Source: Candidatus Krumholzibacteriia bacterium (GTDB taxonomy: Bacteria; Krumholzibacteriota; Krumholzibacteria; WVZY01; JAKEHA01). Taken from it: a stretch of 8,413 nucleotides of DNA. Positions 2,237-8,413 of the stretch are shown in pieces. The stretch is from assembly GCA_029863355.1 (NCBI GenBank), contig JAOTVO010000106.1, positions 1 to 8,413 on the forward strand. The letters are read 5' to 3'. Every line of letters starts with the position of its first letter. The stretch's first letter is position 1. Both the position numbers and the translations under genes were made by a program. Below the pieces are notes generated by a model. The model was not told where the DNA came from. It did no database searches and saw only the letters and a program-made list of their open reading frames with translations.

Positions 2237-3079
2237 ATGGCCGCGGGACCCTTTCAGCGCGTCGGCCTGGGGGCGAATCTCGCCAAGGACGAGGCGGCGG
2301 GACTCGTCGAGCGGCTCCTGCTCTCGCTCGTCTCCGAAGGCTTCGACGTCTTCCTCGACGACGACTTGCGTCCGCACGTGCGCGCCGAGAACGGCACGCG
2401 CTACGGCATCCCCGCGGACGCCGACCTCATCCTCAGCGTCGGCGGCGACGGCACGGTGCTCAAGTTCGCCCGCCGCTTCGCCGAGGCCCAGATCCCCATT
2501 CTGGGCGTCAAGATGGGTCGTCTCGGCTTCCTCACCGAGGGGCGTATAGAGCAGGTGGCGCGCTGGCTGCGCGAGGGCCGCTATCAGATCCAGCGCCGCA
2601 TGCGCATCGCCGCCGAGATTCGCGGGGGCGCGCAGCCGCAGGCGGCCTTCACCGCGCTCAACGACGTTGTCGTCCACGGGTCGGGTTTCTCGCGCATGGT
2701 ACGCGTGCGCGTCGAAGTGGATGGCCGTCTCGTGCGCGAGTACGCGGCCGACGGCGTCATCGTGGCTACGCCGACGGGATCGACGGCCTATTCGCTGGCC
2801 GCGGGGGGACCGCTGGTGGAGCCGACGATCGAGGCCATGGTGCTGACACCGCTCAACCCGCACACCATGCGCGTGCGGCCGCTGGTCGTGGACGCGAGGC
2901 AGCGCATCACCATCTCCGTGCTGGCTGCGCGGGCGGACATTCGCGTTACCATCGACGGTCAGGAGGGCGTGTCTCTGCCGGACGGCCAGCACGTGCTCGT
3001 CCACGAGAGCGAGAAGTTCACACCGCTCGTCGTCCCCGTAGACTACGATTTCTTCGAGCTGCTCCGCGAGAAGCTCTGA
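2237..3079 (+). CDS. nadK: NAD kinase
   Basis: ATP-dependent NAD kinase (PpnK/NadK family) phosphorylates NAD to NADP in the cytoplasm. The 280-residue length is typical. Diagnostic motifs are visible: SVGGDGTVLKFAR with GGDGT at residues 69-73 (nucleotide binding), GVKMGRLGFLTE (the GxxxGFLxE loop), ALNDVVVHG with Asn142-Asp143, and DGVIVATPTGSTAYSLAAGGP (172-192), the NAD-binding and catalytic segment. The C-terminal beta-rich part (VTIDGQEG) is also standard. The family often has Asn-Glu where this protein has Asn-Asp at 142-143, a conservative change. A GGGAG site at 2226-2230, six bases before the ATG, supports the start. The gene sits between dxs (13-base gap) and recN (15-base gap). 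Placement next to recN is common in many bacteria. NADP(H) supplied here is needed by DXP reductoisomerase, but that link is inference. Confidence 0.95.
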   Translation: MAAGPFQRVGLGANLAKDEAAGLVERLLLSLVSEGFDVFLDDDLRPHVRAENGTRYGIPADADLILSVGGDGTVLKFARRFAEAQIPILGVKMGRLGFLTEGRIEQVARWLREGRYQIQRRMRIAAEIRGGAQPQAAFTALNDVVVHGSGFSRMVRVRVEVDGRLVREYAADGVIVATPTGSTAYSLAAGGPLVEPTIEAMVLTPLNPHTMRVRPLVVDARQRITISVLAARADIRVTIDGQEGVSLPDGQHVLVHESEKFTPLVVPVDYDFFELLREKL

Positions 3080-3094
3080 CGACGACGACGCGCC

Positions 3095-4786
3095 ATGCTC
3101 ACGCAGCTGCGCATACGCAACCTCGCCATCGTCGACGACATCACCCTGGTGTTTGCTCCCGGCCTAAACGTGCTCACCGGCGCCACCGGGGCGGGGAAGT
3201 CCCTCATCGTGGGTGCGGTGAACTGGCTATTGGGCGAGAAGGCCGAGCTCGAGGACATCCGCCGCGGCGAGGAGATGGCCGACGTGGAGGCGACCTTCGC
3301 GGCCGACGCCGCGCACGCCGCCGCGCTGACGGTACGCCGCGTGGTGCGGCGAAGTGGCCGCGGGCGGTGTTTCATCGACGGCCGTCCGGTCACCGCGCGC
3401 GAGCTTCGCGAGACGTGCGCACGCCTGGTGGCTCCGCACGGCCAGAACGAGCAGTCGCGCCTGCGCGACCCGACCAGCCACGCCGCTTTCCTAGACGCCT
3501 TCGCCCACAGCGCTCCGCTGCTCGCGCGCTACCACGAGGCGCTCGCCGCGTACCGGTGCGCCCACGGCGCCCTCTCCGTCTTCACGGCGCAGCTGGCCGC
3601 GGCCCGCGAGAAGCGCGAGCTCCTCGAGCATCGCCTCGGTGAGGTGGAGCGCGCGCGGCTCCAGCGCGGAGAGCGCGAAGAGATCGAGCGCAAGATGCGC
3701 GTGATGGCGCACGCGGAGCGGATCGCCGAAGCCTTGGCCTTCGCGTGCGAGGCGCTCTACGACGCGGACGATTCCGCCGCCGCCCTGGCCGCGCGCGTGC
3801 GCCGGCGCCTGGAGACGATCGCGGAGGTCGACGAGCGCCTGGCCGGGTTCGCCTCCCAGGTGGAGGCGGCGCGCCTGACCCTCGACGAGTGCGCCGCCGG
3901 CCTGCGCGCGTACCTGGTGTCGGTCGAGTACGACCCCGCCGAGCTGCGCCGCCTCGAAGACCGCCTCGCCCTCGTCCTCGGCCTGGAGAAACGCTACGGG
4001 ATGAGCGCCGACGTCATCGTGGACGAGGCGTTGCGGTGGCGGGAAGCGCTGGATGGGATTGCGCTCTCGGACGAGCGGCGCTCGGAGCTGGAGAGCGCTT
4101 GCGAGGCGGCGGCTGCGGGGCTCGCACGCGCGGCGCACGCGCTCGGCGAGACGCGGCGCCGGGCCGGCGTCGATCTGGACGCGCGCATGAGCGCGGAACT
4201 CGAGGCGCTGGAGATGCGCGGCGCGCGCTTCCGCACCTTGATCGAGCGCGTCGAGGATCCGGCGAGCGACGTGCGCGTGGATGGGCACGCCGTGGCCGTC
4301 TTGGAGGACGGCGCCGACGTCGTTCGCTTCCGCGTGCGCAGCAATCCCGGCGAGCTCGAAGGCGGCGTGGAGCGAATTGCCTCTACCGGAGAGGCGTCGC
4401 GCATCGCGCTCGCTCTGAAGCGCCTCACGGGCGAAGGCGCGCAAGGCACCACTCTCGTCTTCGACGAGATCGACGCCGGCGTGGGCGCGGACCTCGGCGC
4501 CGTGATCGGGGAGAAACTCCTTGATCTGAGCGCGCGTTATCAAGTAGTTTGCATTACTCACATGCCCCAGATCGCCGCGCGGGGCCGGCTGCATCTCGTC
4601 GTCTCCAAGCGAGGTCGCGCGGGTCGCGTCGCCGTCGAAGTGACCGCGGTCGCGGGAGAAGCGCGCCGCCGCGAGATTGCCCGCATGCTCGGGGGCGAAG
4701 AGGGTAGCGCCCACCGGGCAGCCCTCGCCGACGAGCTGCTCCGGGGGACACCCACCGCCGCAAAACGTACGCGCATGCGCCCGTAG
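3095..4786 (+). CDS. recN: DNA repair protein RecN, with variant ATPase motifs
   Basis: RecN is an SMC-like ATPase that helps repair double-strand breaks by tethering DNA ends and working with RecA. The 563-residue length fits the family. The N-terminal head has LRIRNLAIVDDI, then Walker A GATGAGKS (29-36), where the family usually has GETGAGKS, and a Q-loop HGQNEQ (115-120) in place of HGQHEH. A charged, coiled-coil region spans about 150-370. The C-terminal head carries the signature STGEASR (430-436), where SGGELSR is usual, then Walker B FDEIDAGVG (456-464) and the H-loop CITHMPQIA with His489. Walker lysine, Walker B acids and switch His are all kept, so it is probably functional. No clear ribosome binding site precedes the ATG; the 15-base spacer is a GAC run, so translation may be coupled to nadK. 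The TAG stop lies inside the downstream tRNA gene. Confidence 0.93.
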   Translation: MLTQLRIRNLAIVDDITLVFAPGLNVLTGATGAGKSLIVGAVNWLLGEKAELEDIRRGEEMADVEATFAADAAHAAALTVRRVVRRSGRGRCFIDGRPVTARELRETCARLVAPHGQNEQSRLRDPTSHAAFLDAFAHSAPLLARYHEALAAYRCAHGALSVFTAQLAAAREKRELLEHRLGEVERARLQRGEREEIERKMRVMAHAERIAEALAFACEALYDADDSAAALAARVRRRLETIAEVDERLAGFASQVEAARLTLDECAAGLRAYLVSVEYDPAELRRLEDRLALVLGLEKRYGMSADVIVDEALRWREALDGIALSDERRSELESACEAAAAGLARAAHALGETRRRAGVDLDARMSAELEALEMRGARFRTLIERVEDPASDVRVDGHAVAVLEDGADVVRFRVRSNPGELEGGVERIASTGEASRIALALKRLTGEGAQGTTLVFDEIDAGVGADLGAVIGEKLLDLSARYQVVCITHMPQIAARGRLHLVVSKRGRAGRVAVEVTAVAGEARRREIARMLGGEEGSAHRAALADELLRGTPTAAKRTRMRP

Positions 4787-4853
4787 CTCAGCTGGATAGA
4801 GCACTGGCCTCCGGAGCCAGGAGTCGCAGGTTCGAATCCTGCCGGGCGTACCA
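4777..4853 (+). tRNA. tRNA-Arg (anticodon CCG), CCA encoded
   Basis: A full 77-base cloverleaf can be folded by eye. Acceptor stem: 4777-4783 with 4843-4849. D arm: GCUC 4786-4789 with GAGC 4799-4802. Anticodon stem: CUGGC 4804-4808 with GCCAG 4816-4820. The anticodon CCG is at 4811-4813, followed by G37, and reads Arg codon CGG. The variable loop is five bases. T arm: GCAGG 4826-4830, loop UUCGAAU, CCUGC 4838-4842. Then A73 and an encoded CCA at 4851-4853. The first acceptor pair is G1-U72, a wobble where most tRNAs have G-C. The first ten bases overlap the 3' end of recN. The leader GTACGC (4767-4772) is complementary to GCGTAC (4846-4851) at the tRNA 3' end, and GCGCATGCGC (4771-4780) is a palindrome across the mature 5' end, so alternative precursor folds are possible. 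Confidence 0.96.
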
Positions 4854-4864
4854 TTTTTCCACGT

Positions 4865-4870
4865 AGGGAG
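4865..4870 (+). promoter_or_regulatory. Ribosome binding site supporting a GTG start
   Basis: AGGGAG lies seven bases before the GTG at 4878 and supports the non-ATG start of the small gene. It falls in the 24-base spacer between the tRNA CCA end and the start codon, so it would lie on the 5' leader released if the tRNA is cut from a longer transcript. Confidence 0.6.
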
Positions 4871-4877
4871 TACCGTC

Positions 4878-5084
4878 GTGCTCCAGGCCGTCTTCAGGCT
4901 GTTCTTGCTCGCCCTTATCGTCCACAGCATCGGACGCCTCCTGCGCCGCGTCCGCGCGCCCGGGCGGGGCGGCATTTCGCAAGAAGGAGACGTGAATCGG
5001 GGCAAAAACCCCCGCTACGATGGGCTGACCCCCTACGAGATCGCCGACGGCGAGTTCGAAGAGATCCCCCAGGATCGGGCCTAG
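4878..5084 (+). CDS. Small hypothetical membrane-anchored protein (68 residues)
   Basis: I do not recognise this gene. The GTG start is chosen for its upstream AGGGAG site; there is no ATG alternative. Residues 4-19 form a short hydrophobic helix (AVFRLFLLALIVHSIG). A basic cluster follows (RLLRRVRAPGR, 20-30), then a polar linker and an acidic C-terminal tail with YEIADGEFEEI at 53-63. A short N-terminal anchor with a positive stop and a Tyr/Glu-rich tail suggests a single-pass protein with a cytoplasmic tail, possibly a partner-binding tail. The coding evidence is circumstantial: good ribosome sites at both ends, a tight junction with the next gene, and no competing gene on the other strand. 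The stop codon TAG is part of the next gene's AGGAG site, so the two are probably translationally coupled. Confidence 0.6.
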   Translation: MLQAVFRLFLLALIVHSIGRLLRRVRAPGRGGISQEGDVNRGKNPRYDGLTPYEIADGEFEEIPQDRA

Positions 5085-5093
5085 GAGCCGCCG

Positions 5094-5420
5094 ATGCTGA
5101 TCAAGACCCGCCGACCCCGCCACTCCAGCAAGTTCTCGTCGCGCTTCAGGGCCTCCTCCCATAAGCGGCAGGAATACGCGGCCACCGTGTACACCATGGC
5201 GGCCGTCAAGGGCATGCTGGCCATCGTGCTCGCCGTGGCGGCCGTGCAGGCGTTTCGAGCCGTGGACGTCCACGCCGCCGACCTGCCGCTGCCGATCAAG
5301 CTGGCCCTGCCCGTCGCGCTGGCGGCGGGCGGCCTCCTGTCGTTGCGGGCCTGTGTGCGCAACTTCCAGGAGGGGCGCGAGATATGGCGGCGCCGCCGCG
5401 AGCCCCCCGCGGACCACTGA
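5094..5420 (+). CDS. Hypothetical protein with two membrane segments and a basic N-terminus (108 residues)
   Basis: I do not recognise this gene. The ATG is preceded six bases upstream by AGGAG (5083-5087), which overlaps the previous gene's stop. Residues 1-27 carry about nine Lys/Arg and only one acid, and are probably cytoplasmic. Two hydrophobic segments follow, roughly 36-54 (AAVKGMLAIVLAVAAVQAF) and 66-87 (LPIKLALPVALAAGGLLSLRAC), joined by a short loop containing VDVHAADLP. The tail, from about 88, is again basic (FQEGREIWRRRRE). The positive-inside rule predicts both ends in the cytoplasm and a small periplasmic hairpin loop. With the preceding small membrane protein it forms a two-gene unit, possibly a complex. 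It ends 149 bases before the GGDEF gene, which has its own promoter, so the two units are probably separate. Function is unknown. Confidence 0.65.
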   Translation: MLIKTRRPRHSSKFSSRFRASSHKRQEYAATVYTMAAVKGMLAIVLAVAAVQAFRAVDVHAADLPLPIKLALPVALAAGGLLSLRACVRNFQEGREIWRRRREPPADH

Positions 5421-5569
5421 CCCCGCCCCCGGACCGGTCTCCCTAATGGGTTCGCTTGATTGAGGTTATGGCGTTCCGTGGCATGGGACTTGCTCGGCCC
5501 AAACGGACCCTGTGCGGGCCGGGGGTGTGCCTCGCCCGCAACGCGAGGTCAGCTCTTTAAATCGCTGTC
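5421..5569 (+). other. Intergenic regulatory region upstream of the GGDEF gene
   Basis: This 149-base gap holds no gene that I can support. It contains an 8-base palindrome GACCGGTC (5432-5439), the sigma-54 promoter (5479-5494), and a possible short stem CGGCCC/GGGCCG (5495-5500 with 5516-5521) that straddles the predicted transcription start. From about 5551 onward it turns A/T-richer up to the start codon. I see no U-tract terminator after the preceding gene. Confidence 0.6.
5479..5494 (+). promoter_or_regulatory. Sigma-54 (RpoN) -24/-12 promoter
   Basis: The sequence TGGCATGGGACTTGCT matches the RpoN consensus TGGCACG-N4-TTGCW at all fixed positions except C-to-T at the sixth base. The invariant GG (5480-5481) and GC (5492-5493) are separated by exactly 10 bases, as RpoN requires. 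Transcription would start near 5505, giving a leader of about 65 bases before the GGDEF gene at 5570. Such promoters need an AAA+ enhancer-binding activator, which is not encoded in this window, and expression would normally be conditional (starvation, development, motility or surface signals). This is a sequence match only; the start site is inferred. Confidence 0.7.
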
Positions 5570-6622
5570 ATGAAGAAATTTGTAAAGCACCGCGAACTCC
5601 TGTTCTCGACCCTGTCCGAGATCACCAGCCTCATCGTCGCCGGCAACGACAAGAAGCTGATTTTCGAGCGTCTGCTCGATTGCTCGCTCATCGTCCTCGA
5701 CGCCGAGCGCGTCTACCTGCTGGAACTGGAGCGCGACTCCGTGGTCAAGTACTCGAAGTCCCGGCAGAGCGGCGGGGAACAGCTCCGCGTCGAGGTCCTG
5801 CGCGACTCGTCGGTGGTCCGCGACTGGATGCTGCGCGAAGGCGGCGCCAAGGAGCGGTTCCAGCGCGGCGGGGAGCTGGCCTTCGACCTGCCGATCCTGA
5901 CCAACCGCTACCTCCAGGAAGCGGACTCCAGCGGCGTGATCATCTCGGCGCCCCTGGTGGCCAAGAAATCGATGTTCGGGCTCCTGGTGGCGCTGCACCA
6001 CGACGACGGCCAGCTCTACACCCAGGAGGATATCCAGCTCGTCACCGTCCTGGCCAACCACGCGGCCATCGCCGTGGAAAACGCGTTGCTCTACCAGAAG
6101 CTCGAGCGCGAGGCGGTGACGGACGGCCTGACCTCCGTGTTCAACTACCGCTTTCTGATCTCCTCGCTCGAGACTGAGATCAAGCGCGCCCGCCGCTTCA
6201 AGCAGTCCTTCTCGTTCGTCATGCTCGACGTCGACAACCTCAAAACGTACAACGACCGCCACGGTCACCTCGGCGGCAGCCAGGCCCTGAAGGAGATCGC
6301 CACGATCATCAAGGCCAGCTGCCGGGAGATCGACCTGGTGAGCAAGTATGGGGGCGACGAATTCGGCATCCTTCTGCCGCAGACCGGACTCACCGGCGCA
6401 GAAAGGGTCACCCGGCGCGTCGTCGAGGCCGTGGGCCGCCACCGCTTCGACAGCGAGAGCACCGGGCTGCTCACCTGCAGTGCAGGCATCTCCACTTTCC
6501 CGCGCGACGGTCAGACCGTGCGCGAACTCATCTCCGCCGCCGATAAGGCGCTCTTCCAGGCGAAGCGGTCGGGCAAGAACTCGGTCCTCACGACCGAGGA
6601 CCTGATCGGGGAAATCGCTTGA
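5570..6622 (+). CDS. GAF-GGDEF cyclic dinucleotide synthase, candidate Hypr (cGAMP-producing) variant
   Basis: A soluble 350-residue protein with no membrane segment or signal peptide: an N-terminal GAF-like sensor (about 10-170), a linker helix ending LYQKLEREAVTDGLT, then a GGDEF domain (about 184-340). GGDEF domains join two nucleoside triphosphates into a cyclic dinucleotide. It aligns without gaps to PleD: metal ligand Asp220, base-contacting Asn228, inhibitory-site motif REID (252-255), and YGGDEF with GGDEF at 261-265. The enzyme therefore looks active and feedback-inhibited. The key oddity is Ser237 (in GHLGGSQAL), where PleD has Asp344 reading guanine. Ser at this place defines Hypr GGDEFs such as Geobacter GacA, which make 3',3'-cGAMP. 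ATG 5570 is the only sensible start, since TAA at 5558 blocks the frame. No good ribosome site is visible, but the early codons are A/T-rich. A sigma-54 promoter lies upstream. Canonical c-di-GMP synthesis remains possible. Confidence 0.93.
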   Translation: MKKFVKHRELLFSTLSEITSLIVAGNDKKLIFERLLDCSLIVLDAERVYLLELERDSVVKYSKSRQSGGEQLRVEVLRDSSVVRDWMLREGGAKERFQRGGELAFDLPILTNRYLQEADSSGVIISAPLVAKKSMFGLLVALHHDDGQLYTQEDIQLVTVLANHAAIAVENALLYQKLEREAVTDGLTSVFNYRFLISSLETEIKRARRFKQSFSFVMLDVDNLKTYNDRHGHLGGSQALKEIATIIKASCREIDLVSKYGGDEFGILLPQTGLTGAERVTRRVVEAVGRHRFDSESTGLLTCSAGISTFPRDGQTVRELISAADKALFQAKRSGKNSVLTTEDLIGEIA

Positions 6623-6629
6623 CGCACGC

Positions 6630-6662
6630 CGGGCCCGGGGCAAATCGGTTCTTGCCGGCCCG
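6630..6662 (+). terminator. Hairpin after the GGDEF gene, possible terminator or attenuator
   Basis: CGGGCC (6630-6635) pairs with GGCCCG (6657-6662), and stacked inside it GGCAA (6639-6643) pairs with TTGCC (6652-6656), with an 8-base loop and a 3-base bulge (6636-6638) on one side. That makes 11 base pairs, beginning 8 bases after the stop codon. No U tract follows, so it is not a classical intrinsic terminator. It may slow polymerase, protect the 3' end, or act with Rho. Confidence 0.35.
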
Positions 6663-6686
6663 CCGCCCACCGTATAGGCTATAGCC
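6652..6686 (+). promoter_or_regulatory. Possible sigma-70 promoter and operator-like palindrome
   Basis: TTGCCG (6652-6657) resembles a -35 box. TAGGCT (6675-6680, 17-base spacing) or TATAGG (6673-6678, 15-base spacing) could be the -10. The perfect 10-base palindrome GGCTATAGCC (6677-6686) overlaps this -10 area and would suit a dimeric regulator. Each box is only a partial match, and the -35 falls in the right arm of the hairpin, so this is tentative. Confidence 0.3.
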
Positions 6687-6695
6687 GTTTCGAAG

Positions 6696-6701
6696 AAGGA
6701 G
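6696..6701 (+). promoter_or_regulatory. Strong ribosome binding site of the nucleotide-sugar dehydrogenase
   Basis: AAGGAG lies four bases before the ATG at 6706. It is the strongest Shine-Dalgarno match among the complete genes here and implies efficient translation. Confidence 0.75.
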
Positions 6702-6705
6702 TTGT

Positions 6706-8001
6706 ATGTCGCTGATCGAGAAAATCCGCCGTAGGGATGCTTCTCTGGCCGTGATCGGCCTGGGCTATGTCGGCCTGCCCCTCCTGGTCGAATTCGCCCG
6801 GGCCGGGTTCCGCACCGTGGGCATAGACATCGACGCGGACAAGGTGCGGCGGGTGAACGCGGGCGAAAGCTACGTCGGCGACGTACCCGCCGCGGTGCTG
6901 GGCGAGGCGGTGGCCAGCGGCCGGCTGCGCGCGACGACGGATTTCTCGGTGCTCGCGCAGGCGGACACGGTCAACATCTGCGTGCCCACCCCGTTGCGCA
7001 AGACGCGCGACCCGGACATTTCCTACATCGTGGCGTGCGTCGAGGAGATCGCCAAGTACCTGCACGATCCGCAGCTCGTCATTCTCGAGTCGACCACCTA
7101 CCCGGGGACCACCGAGGAAGTCATCCAGCCCATGCTCGAGGCGGGTGGCTATCGCACGGGCGAGAACTTCTTCCTGGCCTTCTCGCCGGAGCGCGTGGAC
7201 CCGGGCAACGCCAAATTCAACACCAAGAACATACCGAAGGTGGTGGGCGGGATTACGCCGGCGTGCACGGAAGTCGCCGCCGCCCTCTACGCCAGCACGC
7301 TGGCCGAGGTGGTGTCGGTCAGCTCGGCCCGGGTGGCGGAGACGGTGAAACTCCTCGAGAACACCTTCCGCAGCGTCAACATTGGCCTGGTCAACGAGAT
7401 CGCGCTCATGTGCGGCAAGATGGAGATCGACGTGTGGGAAGTGATCGCGGCGGCGGCGACGAAGCCTTTCGGGTTCATGGCGTTCTACCCCGGACCGGGT
7501 CTGGGCGGGCACTGCATCCCCATCGATCCGTTCTACCTGTCCTGGAAGGCCAAGCTGGCCGGGTTCGAGGCCCGCTTCATCGAGCTGGCCGGCCAGATCA
7601 ACGGCTCGATGCCCGAGTACGTCGTGACCAAGGTTGCCGACACCCTGAACAGTCTGCGCAAGAGCGTCAACGGCTCCCGCGTGCTCGTCGTCGGCGTGTC
7701 CTACAAGGCCGACATCGACGACATCCGTGAGTCTCCGGCGCTGGACATCATCCGCCTCCTGCGCAAGCACGGCGCCGAGGTGGTGTTCCACGACCGGCTG
7801 GTGGACCCCGAGCACGCGGAGCTCGAGGGCACGCGGTACGTGGACCTCAAACCGGAGACGGCGCGCGCCTGCGACTGCGCCGTGGTAGTGACGGGGCACT
7901 CGGGGGTCGATTACCAAGTGCTGCTCGAGAACGCCCCCGCGGTGGTGGATACGCGCAACGTCTACAGTGGCGTGCGCTCACCGAAGATCGTCAAGCTCTA
8001 G
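6706..8001 (+). CDS. wbpA: Nucleotide-sugar dehydrogenase, probably UDP-N-acetylglucosamine 6-dehydrogenase (WbpA type)
   Basis: This is an NAD-dependent four-electron oxidoreductase of the UDP-glucose/GDP-mannose dehydrogenase family. It oxidises C6 of a UDP-sugar to a uronate in the cytoplasm. The 431-residue length matches WbpA. The N-terminal Rossmann domain has VIGLGYVGLPL (GxGxxG at 18-23) and Asp41 for the NAD ribose. SPERVDPG lies at 160-167, and the catalytic Lys215 and Asn219 in AETVKLLENTFR. The active-site Cys270 lies in GPGLGGHCIPIDPFYLSWKA. The C-terminal UDP-binding domain begins near RVLVVGVSYKADIDDIRESPA. The FYPGPGLGGHCIPIDPFYL wording is typical of UDP-GlcNAc/UDP-HexNAc dehydrogenases, less so of UDP-glucose enzymes, but the substrate is inferred. 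It is followed after 21 bases by a WbpP/TviC-like epimerase, which supports a UDP-GlcNAcA to UDP-GalNAcA route for a surface polysaccharide. Confidence 0.9.
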   Translation: MSLIEKIRRRDASLAVIGLGYVGLPLLVEFARAGFRTVGIDIDADKVRRVNAGESYVGDVPAAVLGEAVASGRLRATTDFSVLAQADTVNICVPTPLRKTRDPDISYIVACVEEIAKYLHDPQLVILESTTYPGTTEEVIQPMLEAGGYRTGENFFLAFSPERVDPGNAKFNTKNIPKVVGGITPACTEVAAALYASTLAEVVSVSSARVAETVKLLENTFRSVNIGLVNEIALMCGKMEIDVWEVIAAAATKPFGFMAFYPGPGLGGHCIPIDPFYLSWKAKLAGFEARFIELAGQINGSMPEYVVTKVADTLNSLRKSVNGSRVLVVGVSYKADIDDIRESPALDIIRLLRKHGAEVVFHDRLVDPEHAELEGTRYVDLKPETARACDCAVVVTGHSGVDYQVLLENAPAVVDTRNVYSGVRSPKIVKL

Positions 8002-8022: not shown

Positions 8023-8413
8023 ATGGCCACGTACCTGGTGACCGGCGGCGCGGGCTTCATCGGCTCGAACCTCGTCGACGCCCTGCTCGCGCGCGGCGAG
8101 CGGGTGCGCGTGCTGGACAATTTCGCGACCGGGCGGGAGGAGAACGTGCGGGACTTCGGCGACCGGATCGAGCTGCTGCGCGGAGACATCCGCGACGAGG
8201 CCGCCGTGGATCGCAGCGTGGCCGGCGCGGACTACGTGCTGCACCAGGCCGCACTGGCATCGGTGCCGCGGTCGATCGCGGACCCGACCTCGAACAACGA
8301 GGTGAACGTGCAGGGCACGCTCAACCTGCTGCAGGCGGCGGTTCGCCACGGGGTCGCGCGTTTCGTGTATGCCTCGTCCTCTTCGGTCTACGGGGACAGC
8401 GAGCAGTTGCCCA
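8023..8413 (+). CDS. wbpP: NAD-dependent sugar epimerase, WbpP/TviC-like (N-terminal part, cut by window end)
   Basis: The first 130 codons of an extended short-chain dehydrogenase/reductase that interconverts GlcNAc- and GalNAc-type UDP-sugars (or their uronates) at C4. NAD binding is shown by VTGGAGFIGSN (TGGxGFIG at 7-14), Asp32-Asn33 in VLDNFATG, Asp55 in LRGDIRD, and HQAALASVPRSIADP (74-88), a segment very like that of Pseudomonas WbpP. The catalytic Ser region FVYASSSSVYGD (114-125) is present; the YxxxK pair lies beyond the edge. The purine-rich stretch GGAGGAGAG (8005-8013) upstream supplies the ribosome site, and the ATG directly begins the Rossmann strand. It is cotranscribed with the dehydrogenase across a 21-base gap. 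A dTDP-glucose or UDP-glucose epimerase/dehydratase is less likely, because of the SVPRS motif and the neighbour. Confidence 0.85.
   Translation, partial: MATYLVTGGAGFIGSNLVDALLARGERVRVLDNFATGREENVRDFGDRIELLRGDIRDEAAVDRSVAGADYVLHQAALASVPRSIADPTSNNEVNVQGTLNLLQAAVRHGVARFVYASSSSVYGDSEQLP

Follow-up and report, generated by a model that had tools for sequence, protein, structure and literature searches.

The closest described systems are the Hypr cyclases, GGDEF enzymes that make 3',3'-cGAMP. Both GacA of Geobacter (GSU1658 / Gmet_1914; PDB ID 6d9m) and Bd0367 of the Bdellovibrionota are reported to produce cGAMP and c-di-GMP, with c-di-AMP as a minor product of Bd0367 (PMC6456294, PMC9140294). 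The roles described as established for GGDEF-made cGAMP are metal oxide respiration in Geobacter and prey exit in Bdellovibrio. Natural GGDEF enzymes with Ser or Thr at the position that reads the base are reported to carry GGDE[F/Y] exclusively, and Ser combined with GGEEF is inactive in GacA (PMC6456294). The cross-dimer residue is Tyr303 in GacA of G. sulfurreducens (GsGacA) and Tyr304 in Gm GacA (GmGacA), and Arg occupies this position in 94% of predicted diguanylate cyclases; cGAMP is the predominant product when the residue is Tyr, Ser, Ala, or Gln, whereas two enzymes with Arg make more c-di-GMP (PMC6456294). The D-to-S change alone left four of five canonical cyclases inactive and the fifth still a diguanylate cyclase (PMC6456294), so that Ser alone is not proof of a Hypr enzyme.

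The window, meaning the whole stretch of 8,413 nucleotides that was analyzed, comes from a Candidatus Krumholzibacteriia bacterium and carries on the plus strand, in this order, dxs, nadK, recN, tRNA-Arg, approximately 720 bp, a gene for a GAF-GGDEF protein, a dehydrogenase gene, and the start of an epimerase gene. The dxs gene and the epimerase fragment were named by eye from the translation. In the features listed below, the PleD residues at the aligned positions are those that we take to be D344, F331, and R366, in agreement with the papers cited here.

2237-3079, plus strand: nadK
3095-4786, plus strand: recN
4777-4853, plus strand: tRNA-Arg(CCG), from the Rfam scan
5479-5494, plus strand: -24/-12 (sigma-54, RpoN) promoter-like element TGGCATGGGACTTGCT, 91 bp upstream of the start codon
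5570-6622, plus strand: open reading frame of 350 amino acids for the GAF-GGDEF protein, a predicted Hypr (cGAMP-making) cyclase
5654-6082, plus strand: GAF domain, predicted sensor, residues 29-171 (Pfam GAF_3, E 4.1e-10)
6023-6118, plus strand: predicted signaling helix between GAF and GGDEF, residues 152-183 (AlphaFold secondary structure)
6113-6580, plus strand: GGDEF domain, residues 182-337 (Pfam, E 3.5e-40)
6146-6148, plus strand: Tyr193, cross-dimer residue equivalent to GsGacA Tyr303 by alignment (role, PMC6456294)
6239-6241, plus strand: Leu224 (PleD F331), clade-specific substitution at a position of substrate contact, from the domain comparison
6278-6280, plus strand: Ser237 (AGC), base-reading or selectivity position (PleD D344, GsGacA S347), from the DNA and the alignment
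6323-6334, plus strand: I-site R252-x-x-D255, from the DNA
6344-6346, plus strand: Lys259 (PleD R366), clade-specific substitution at a position of substrate contact, from the domain comparison
6350-6364, plus strand: GGDEF motif, residues 261-265, from the DNA
6706-8001, plus strand: nucleotide-sugar dehydrogenase, the next gene downstream (Pfam; NCBIfam TIGR03026, 426.9 bits, above the cut-off)
8023-8412, plus strand: start of a sugar epimerase gene that continues beyond the window (tblastn matches in 13/13 loci)

The original prediction placed Ser237 opposite the canonical Asp, and the DNA indeed reads AGC at this codon, with Asp in the corresponding column of the canonical 5euh; in the alignment with 6d9m, 'GHLVGSQVL' lies under 'GHLGGSQAL' of the protein at the selectivity site. 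Asp220, Asn228, and the I-site residues Arg252 and Asp255 (RxxD) are likewise present in the DNA at the predicted positions. The register over the active site, said to be free of gaps against PleD, was found against 6d9m (GmGacA), PleD itself being matched by phmmer only (1w25, 3.1e-24). Residues 261-265 had been read as GGEEF, which is the motif of PleD; the actual motif is GGDEF, a correction that matters because of the inactivity of GacA when Ser is paired with GGEEF. By sequence, the best-matching solved structure is 6d9m, the Hypr domain from Geobacter (2.8e-38), and a profile search gave 9.7e-51 for this structure versus 1.3e-42 for the best canonical one. Three published marks of Hypr enzymes are thus present, Ser237, GGDEF, and a cross-dimer residue other than Arg (Tyr193), where the prediction had used Ser alone, and together with the intact catalytic and I-site residues and the nearest solved relative they support the predicted Hypr identity, more strongly than the original prediction had put it. 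The AlphaFold model (mean pLDDT 84.7, pTM 0.61) is composed of the GAF domain, a long helix, and the GGDEF domain, with residues 93-102 being poor. The top Foldseek matches were bacteriophytochrome-GGDEF enzymes with TM-scores below 0.5 and root mean square deviation values of at least 14 Å, so that the domain layout is not superimposable on these enzymes; 6d9m ranked 16th, over 182 alignment columns. Neither the model nor the Foldseek matches identified a ligand for the GAF domain.

The active-site residues are conserved well beyond the window. A protein search, in which the 7997 candidates sharing most words were scored, gave 1346 matches at E ≤ 1e-20; among the 120 of these that were listed, Ser237, Tyr193, the GGDEF motif, and the RxxD I-site are present in 120/120, and Asp220, Asp222, Lys225, Asn228, Glu264, and Lys332 are equally invariant. 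Close matches in named groups belong to Krumholzibacteriota and Latescibacterota, with Eisenbacteria MAGs less close, a distribution that would most likely place the source of the window among these lineages. No plasmid-borne copy with at least 60% identity was found among 14 records, the five listed having 31-39%. When 80 genomes were searched from the phylum of G001, the Krumholzibacteriia MAG that holds locus L001, 38 matched at E ≤ 1e-30, 35 of them at 1e-50 or better. Three of the 38 matches (G022, G082, and G085) are weak and could represent ordinary cyclases; the loci analyzed numbered 30. All 30 have Ser and GGDEF, and the cross-dimer residue is Tyr in 29 and Phe in one. Fixation of Ser237 in the 120 listed homologs and the 30 phylum loci shows that the serine did not arise by chance. 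The same genomes were also sampled for other full-length GGDEF domains, with matches shorter than about 120 residues or less significant than 1e-10 left out, and 14/14 of these domains keep Asp. Many of the relatives' genomes also carry one partial GGDEF match, and one homolog (L010:6001-6973) is split across two reading frames by either a natural break or an assembly error.

The comparison was extended to 83 Ser/Thr domains and 77 Asp domains, counts that include some genomes more than once. The motif is GGDEF in 83/83 of the Ser/Thr type, in agreement with the published Hypr rule, termed the Goldilocks rule (PMC6456294), and in the Asp type it is GGEEF in 49 and GGDEF in 23 of 77; a cross-dimer Arg occurs in none of the Ser/Thr domains versus 53 of the 77 Asp domains. 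Among the Bdellovibrionota Hypr domains, the selectivity residue is Thr rather than Ser in six of 16 (L141, L147-L150, and L153). The clade of the window differs from other Hypr domains at two further positions. Leu at the F331 position and Lys at the R366 position occur in 30/30 loci and in 119 and 120, respectively, of the 120 listed homologs, whereas the equivalents remain Phe and Arg in 32/32 other Hypr domains from Desulfuromonadales and Bdellovibrionota; in the 77 Asp-type domains Leu occurs in four and Lys in none. As F331 and R366 are among the residues of PleD reported to contact the substrate (PMC7186502), the activity of GacA is not simply transferable to this clade. The two changes amount to a variant of the Hypr pocket already described and call for caution in naming the exact product.

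Trees were calculated for 97 domains that remained after random thinning. With all columns included, the Hypr domains of the three groups formed one branch (support 96/90). When the five signature columns were removed this union was lost, occurring in 0% of 200 bootstrap trees in a bootstrap that had not settled; the window's clade still held together (95/88), and the Desulfuromonadales and Bdellovibrionota Hypr domains joined each other (97/83). An AU test with the signature columns removed did not reject a single Hypr clade (p-AU 0.232). The idea from the first trees that all Hypr domains share one origin was not kept, since the grouping depends on the five signature columns. Because the 6d9m domain served as the query that yielded the Desulfuromonadales and Bdellovibrionota sets, these are a biased sample. 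Separate evolution of the same residues in this clade and in the GacA group would be one reading of these trees.

The sigma-54 promoter of the original prediction is present at 5479-5494 and is conserved. The sigma-54-type pattern has one match in the window, with 0.01 expected by chance. In the first 11 loci, the window included, the element was found in 11/11, nine of them strict and two with one deviating base. The scoring consensus was written after these 11 sites had been seen, and the loci come partly from the same genomes; in the phylum set the element lies upstream of the gene in 25/25 assessable loci with at least 10 of 12 matches, five of the 30 being left out for missing upstream sequence or gene start. 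When each locus was shuffled 500 times, the score of its element was reached in no more than 14 shuffles, and 158 of 6000 random 220-bp windows reach score 10, the lowest among the 25 loci, which is an upper figure because the pool of windows includes true sites. Hypr genes of the GacA and Bd0367 types reach the promoter score in 0/32 cases within 200 bp upstream of the first possible start. RpoN was found in all 13 of the relatives' genomes tested.

The PrsR motif (TTTACA end) was not seen on reading 5300-5478 of the window. A string from a Gibbs search, located approximately 110-125 bp upstream of the -24/-12 element in most loci (17.4 bits versus 9.1-9.7 when shuffled), is missing from the window and its nearest relatives and is not claimed as an enhancer; we suspect that it is the coding end of a neighboring gene. 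A scan of 4700-6800 for sigma-70 promoters and terminators gave no promoter-like site and a single terminator-like site, which lies within the gene but on the minus strand and does not exceed chance, so that no barrier to read-through into the dehydrogenase gene was found.

The polysaccharide genes that had been noted next to the cyclase gene are a constant feature, with a dehydrogenase or epimerase gene downstream in 30/30 phylum loci and in 13/13 loci of a separate comparison. In the 13 loci the epimerase lies downstream in all and the dehydrogenase in 12 (one fragmented); in the 30 loci the dehydrogenase follows on the same strand in 19 (one fragmented) and the epimerase directly in 11. The epimerase copy of L008 is assigned to Pfam Epimerase. 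The upstream side is more variable. The recN gene is found in 8/13 loci, being absent from L003, L011, and L012 despite approximately 3 kb or more of upstream sequence, and in 11/30 loci with a flank of up to 1.5 kb. In one locus, recN and the cyclase gene are separated by a gene for an M28 peptidase (L006:3645-5333). The tRNA-Arg(CCG) gene of the window overlaps the 3' end of recN (4786) by approximately 10 bases. Between the tRNA and the sigma-54 element there is an open reading frame of 108 amino acids with a hydrophobic stretch (5094-5420); it has no Pfam family and no match among the 13 relatives searched, and therefore is perhaps not a gene.

Evidence on the export cluster and on a regulon comes from the genomes of relatives. 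Beyond the epimerase in L008 and L022 there are genes for an outer-membrane export protein, a Wzz-type protein, and a tyrosine-kinase-like ATPase, which score best or second best with the XrtA (exosortase A) versions of the NCBIfam models, at values below the cut-off. The XrtA models TIGR03007, TIGR03027, TIGR03018, and TIGR03098 are all below the cut-off and TIGR01007 is above it; in G005 an exosortase-A-type ligase, also below the cut-off, follows the export genes. The downstream export genes of the two relatives appear to resemble exosortase-A loci. The pattern TGGCATN5TTGCW has 10 exact matches in G005, whose protein is 70% identical, versus three for the reversed control, and in G029 and G083 it is barely above the control (five and five versus four and four). 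Among the matches in G005 are sites before the cyclase gene, the genes for an exosortase and a PEP-CTERM protein, an operon of HEAT-repeat and HD-GYP-type proteins, and a gene whose product resembles, by eye, a type IV pilin; a large part of the remaining matches is probably due to chance. The HEAT-repeat and HD-GYP-type pair is conserved and stands immediately behind this -24/-12 element in two genomes (L202:266-3653 and L203:236-3694, in G005 and G083), the HD and GYP motifs of the G005 protein are intact, and the pair is a candidate for a co-regulated dinucleotide hydrolase. Look-alikes of the first gene of this operon were seen by eye behind the same element in G001 and G002. By eye as well, L156/L174 and L167/L173 are look-alike pairs from different genomes behind the element, an unnamed protein and an apparent small lipoprotein. 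PrsR scored above the cut-off in 6/13 genomes. Sigma-54 control of PEP-CTERM genes is reported (PMC1569441, PMC9850573).

A GEMM riboswitch, suggested by the original prediction as a partner, was not found. RF01051 was detected in 0/36 relatives with up to 87 candidates scored per genome, the control genome G010 being positive, and an earlier GEMM-I scan gave 0/9 relatives and 2/2 positive control genomes with up to 150 candidates per genome; given these limits on first-look candidates, a diverged GEMM-I motif could be missed. The Rfam scan gave the tRNA alone in the window and nothing in L016. PilZ proteins are present in 12 and HD-GYP proteins in all 13 of the genomes tested. PmxA of Myxococcus is said to be an HD-GYP protein, which fits a title in the reference list of the paper on its activity. 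PmxA is reported to degrade cGAMP (PMC8844925).

From the observed residues and their conservation, the promoter pattern, and the gene order, we infer, with a probability of roughly three in four, a homodimeric, GAF-regulated, and RpoN-driven Hypr cyclase that would make mainly 3',3'-cGAMP with some c-di-GMP and tune exopolysaccharide. An enhancer-binding protein together with RpoN would drive transcription from the -24/-12 promoter, and the GAF domain would determine, via the long helix, how the two GGDEF domains are placed relative to each other. The cyclase would use ATP and GTP to yield cGAMP as the main and c-di-GMP as the lesser product, with Ser237 holding either purine by its Watson-Crick face and Tyr193 stacking over the base in the other half-site. 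Asp263 would hold Mg2+, Glu264 would act across the dimer, and a dinucleotide bound at R252/D255 would shut the enzyme off. The cGAMP formed may adjust how the exopolysaccharide of the adjoining downstream genes is made or exported, in a context similar to that of exosortase/PEP-CTERM systems.

The intact GGDEF fold and catalytic residues would also suit an ordinary diguanylate cyclase that tolerates Ser and Tyr and makes essentially c-di-GMP alone, as does the D-to-S mutant of GSU3350, a canonical cyclase with a GGDEF motif that remained solely a diguanylate cyclase (PMC6456294). However, Ser is here coupled with the cross-dimer Tyr, both fixed in all 120 listed homologs, and the 14 other GGDEF domains sampled from the same genomes all keep Asp, and we regard this explanation as unlikely. 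The unusual Leu and Lys at substrate-contact positions could instead mark a degenerate, non-catalytic domain that serves as a receptor, binding c-di-GMP or GTP at the I-site or the active site. Degenerate GGDEF domains usually lose catalytic or motif residues, whereas here the motif and the six residues named above, from Asp220 to Lys332, are invariant in the listed homologs, which makes a receptor quite improbable. The same two changes, found in 30/30 loci and 0/32 other Hypr domains at positions listed as substrate-contacting in PleD (PMC7186502), might also reshape the pocket of a purine-promiscuous cyclase such that another dinucleotide, c-di-AMP or a linear or mixed form, becomes the main product; against the cGAMP and c-di-GMP made by GacA and Bd0367, with c-di-AMP minor in the latter, this has the slimmest prospect of all.

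The predicted Hypr cyclase making mainly cGAMP would be new as an enzyme of this type that lacks Rec, shows pocket changes of its own, and is encoded behind a separate promoter as the first gene of a sugar-coat cluster, in little-studied environmental bacteria. A literature search found neither the name of this bacterial group together with GGDEF or cyclic di-GMP, nor PEP-CTERM, exosortase, and cGAMP together. The locus points to a conserved cGAMP node that may be tied to exopolysaccharide by promoter and position, and as the GEMM-I riboswitch was not found in the 36 relatives, it is a place to look for a new cGAMP reader. The clade is also a test case for whether Hypr specificity can be reached via more than one set of pocket residues.

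Comparison with the known systems places the protein closest to GacA, with which it has Ser, Tyr, the GGDEF motif, and the I-site in common. The one GacA-type protein scanned consists by Pfam of an N-terminal Rec domain and GGDEF, whereas the window protein has no Rec. The original prediction had opposed GAF here to the Rec of GacA; the lack of Rec holds, but the opposition is less sharp, as the region before GGDEF in 16 GacA-type proteins is weakly similar to GAF (53 columns, at a probability of 61.8%), and the 6d9m entry itself is named 'GAF domain-containing'. GacA-type domains keep Phe and Arg where the window's clade has Leu and Lys, and a -24/-12 element is absent from the 200 bp before the first possible start of their genes (16/16 Desulfuromonadales loci). 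Geobacter reads cGAMP via riboswitches (PMC8835794), in contrast to the GEMM-I result in the relatives of the window. The Bd0367-type enzymes of Bdellovibrionota are like the window protein in having Ser or Thr with GGDEF (16/16 loci), but their cross-dimer residue is Thr, Gln, Met, His, or Ser instead of Tyr, they have no sigma-54 element (16/16), and no similarity to the window protein was detectable before the GGDEF domain. The canonical diguanylate cyclases PleD, WspR, and GcbC share the fold and the catalytic core, but their selectivity residue is Asp and their cross-dimer residue is usually Arg. For the regulation, the nearest parallel is the PEP-CTERM/exosortase regulon with PrsK-PrsR and sigma-54, described in a paper whose accessible part makes no mention of GGDEF, diguanylate, or c-di-GMP (Haft et al. 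2006, PMC1569441). Like the window, this regulon has the sigma-54 promoter class beside exopolysaccharide genes, and the likeness extends to G005, where the same element precedes an exosortase gene and a PEP-CTERM gene, with PrsR approximately 5 kb from the exosortase gene.
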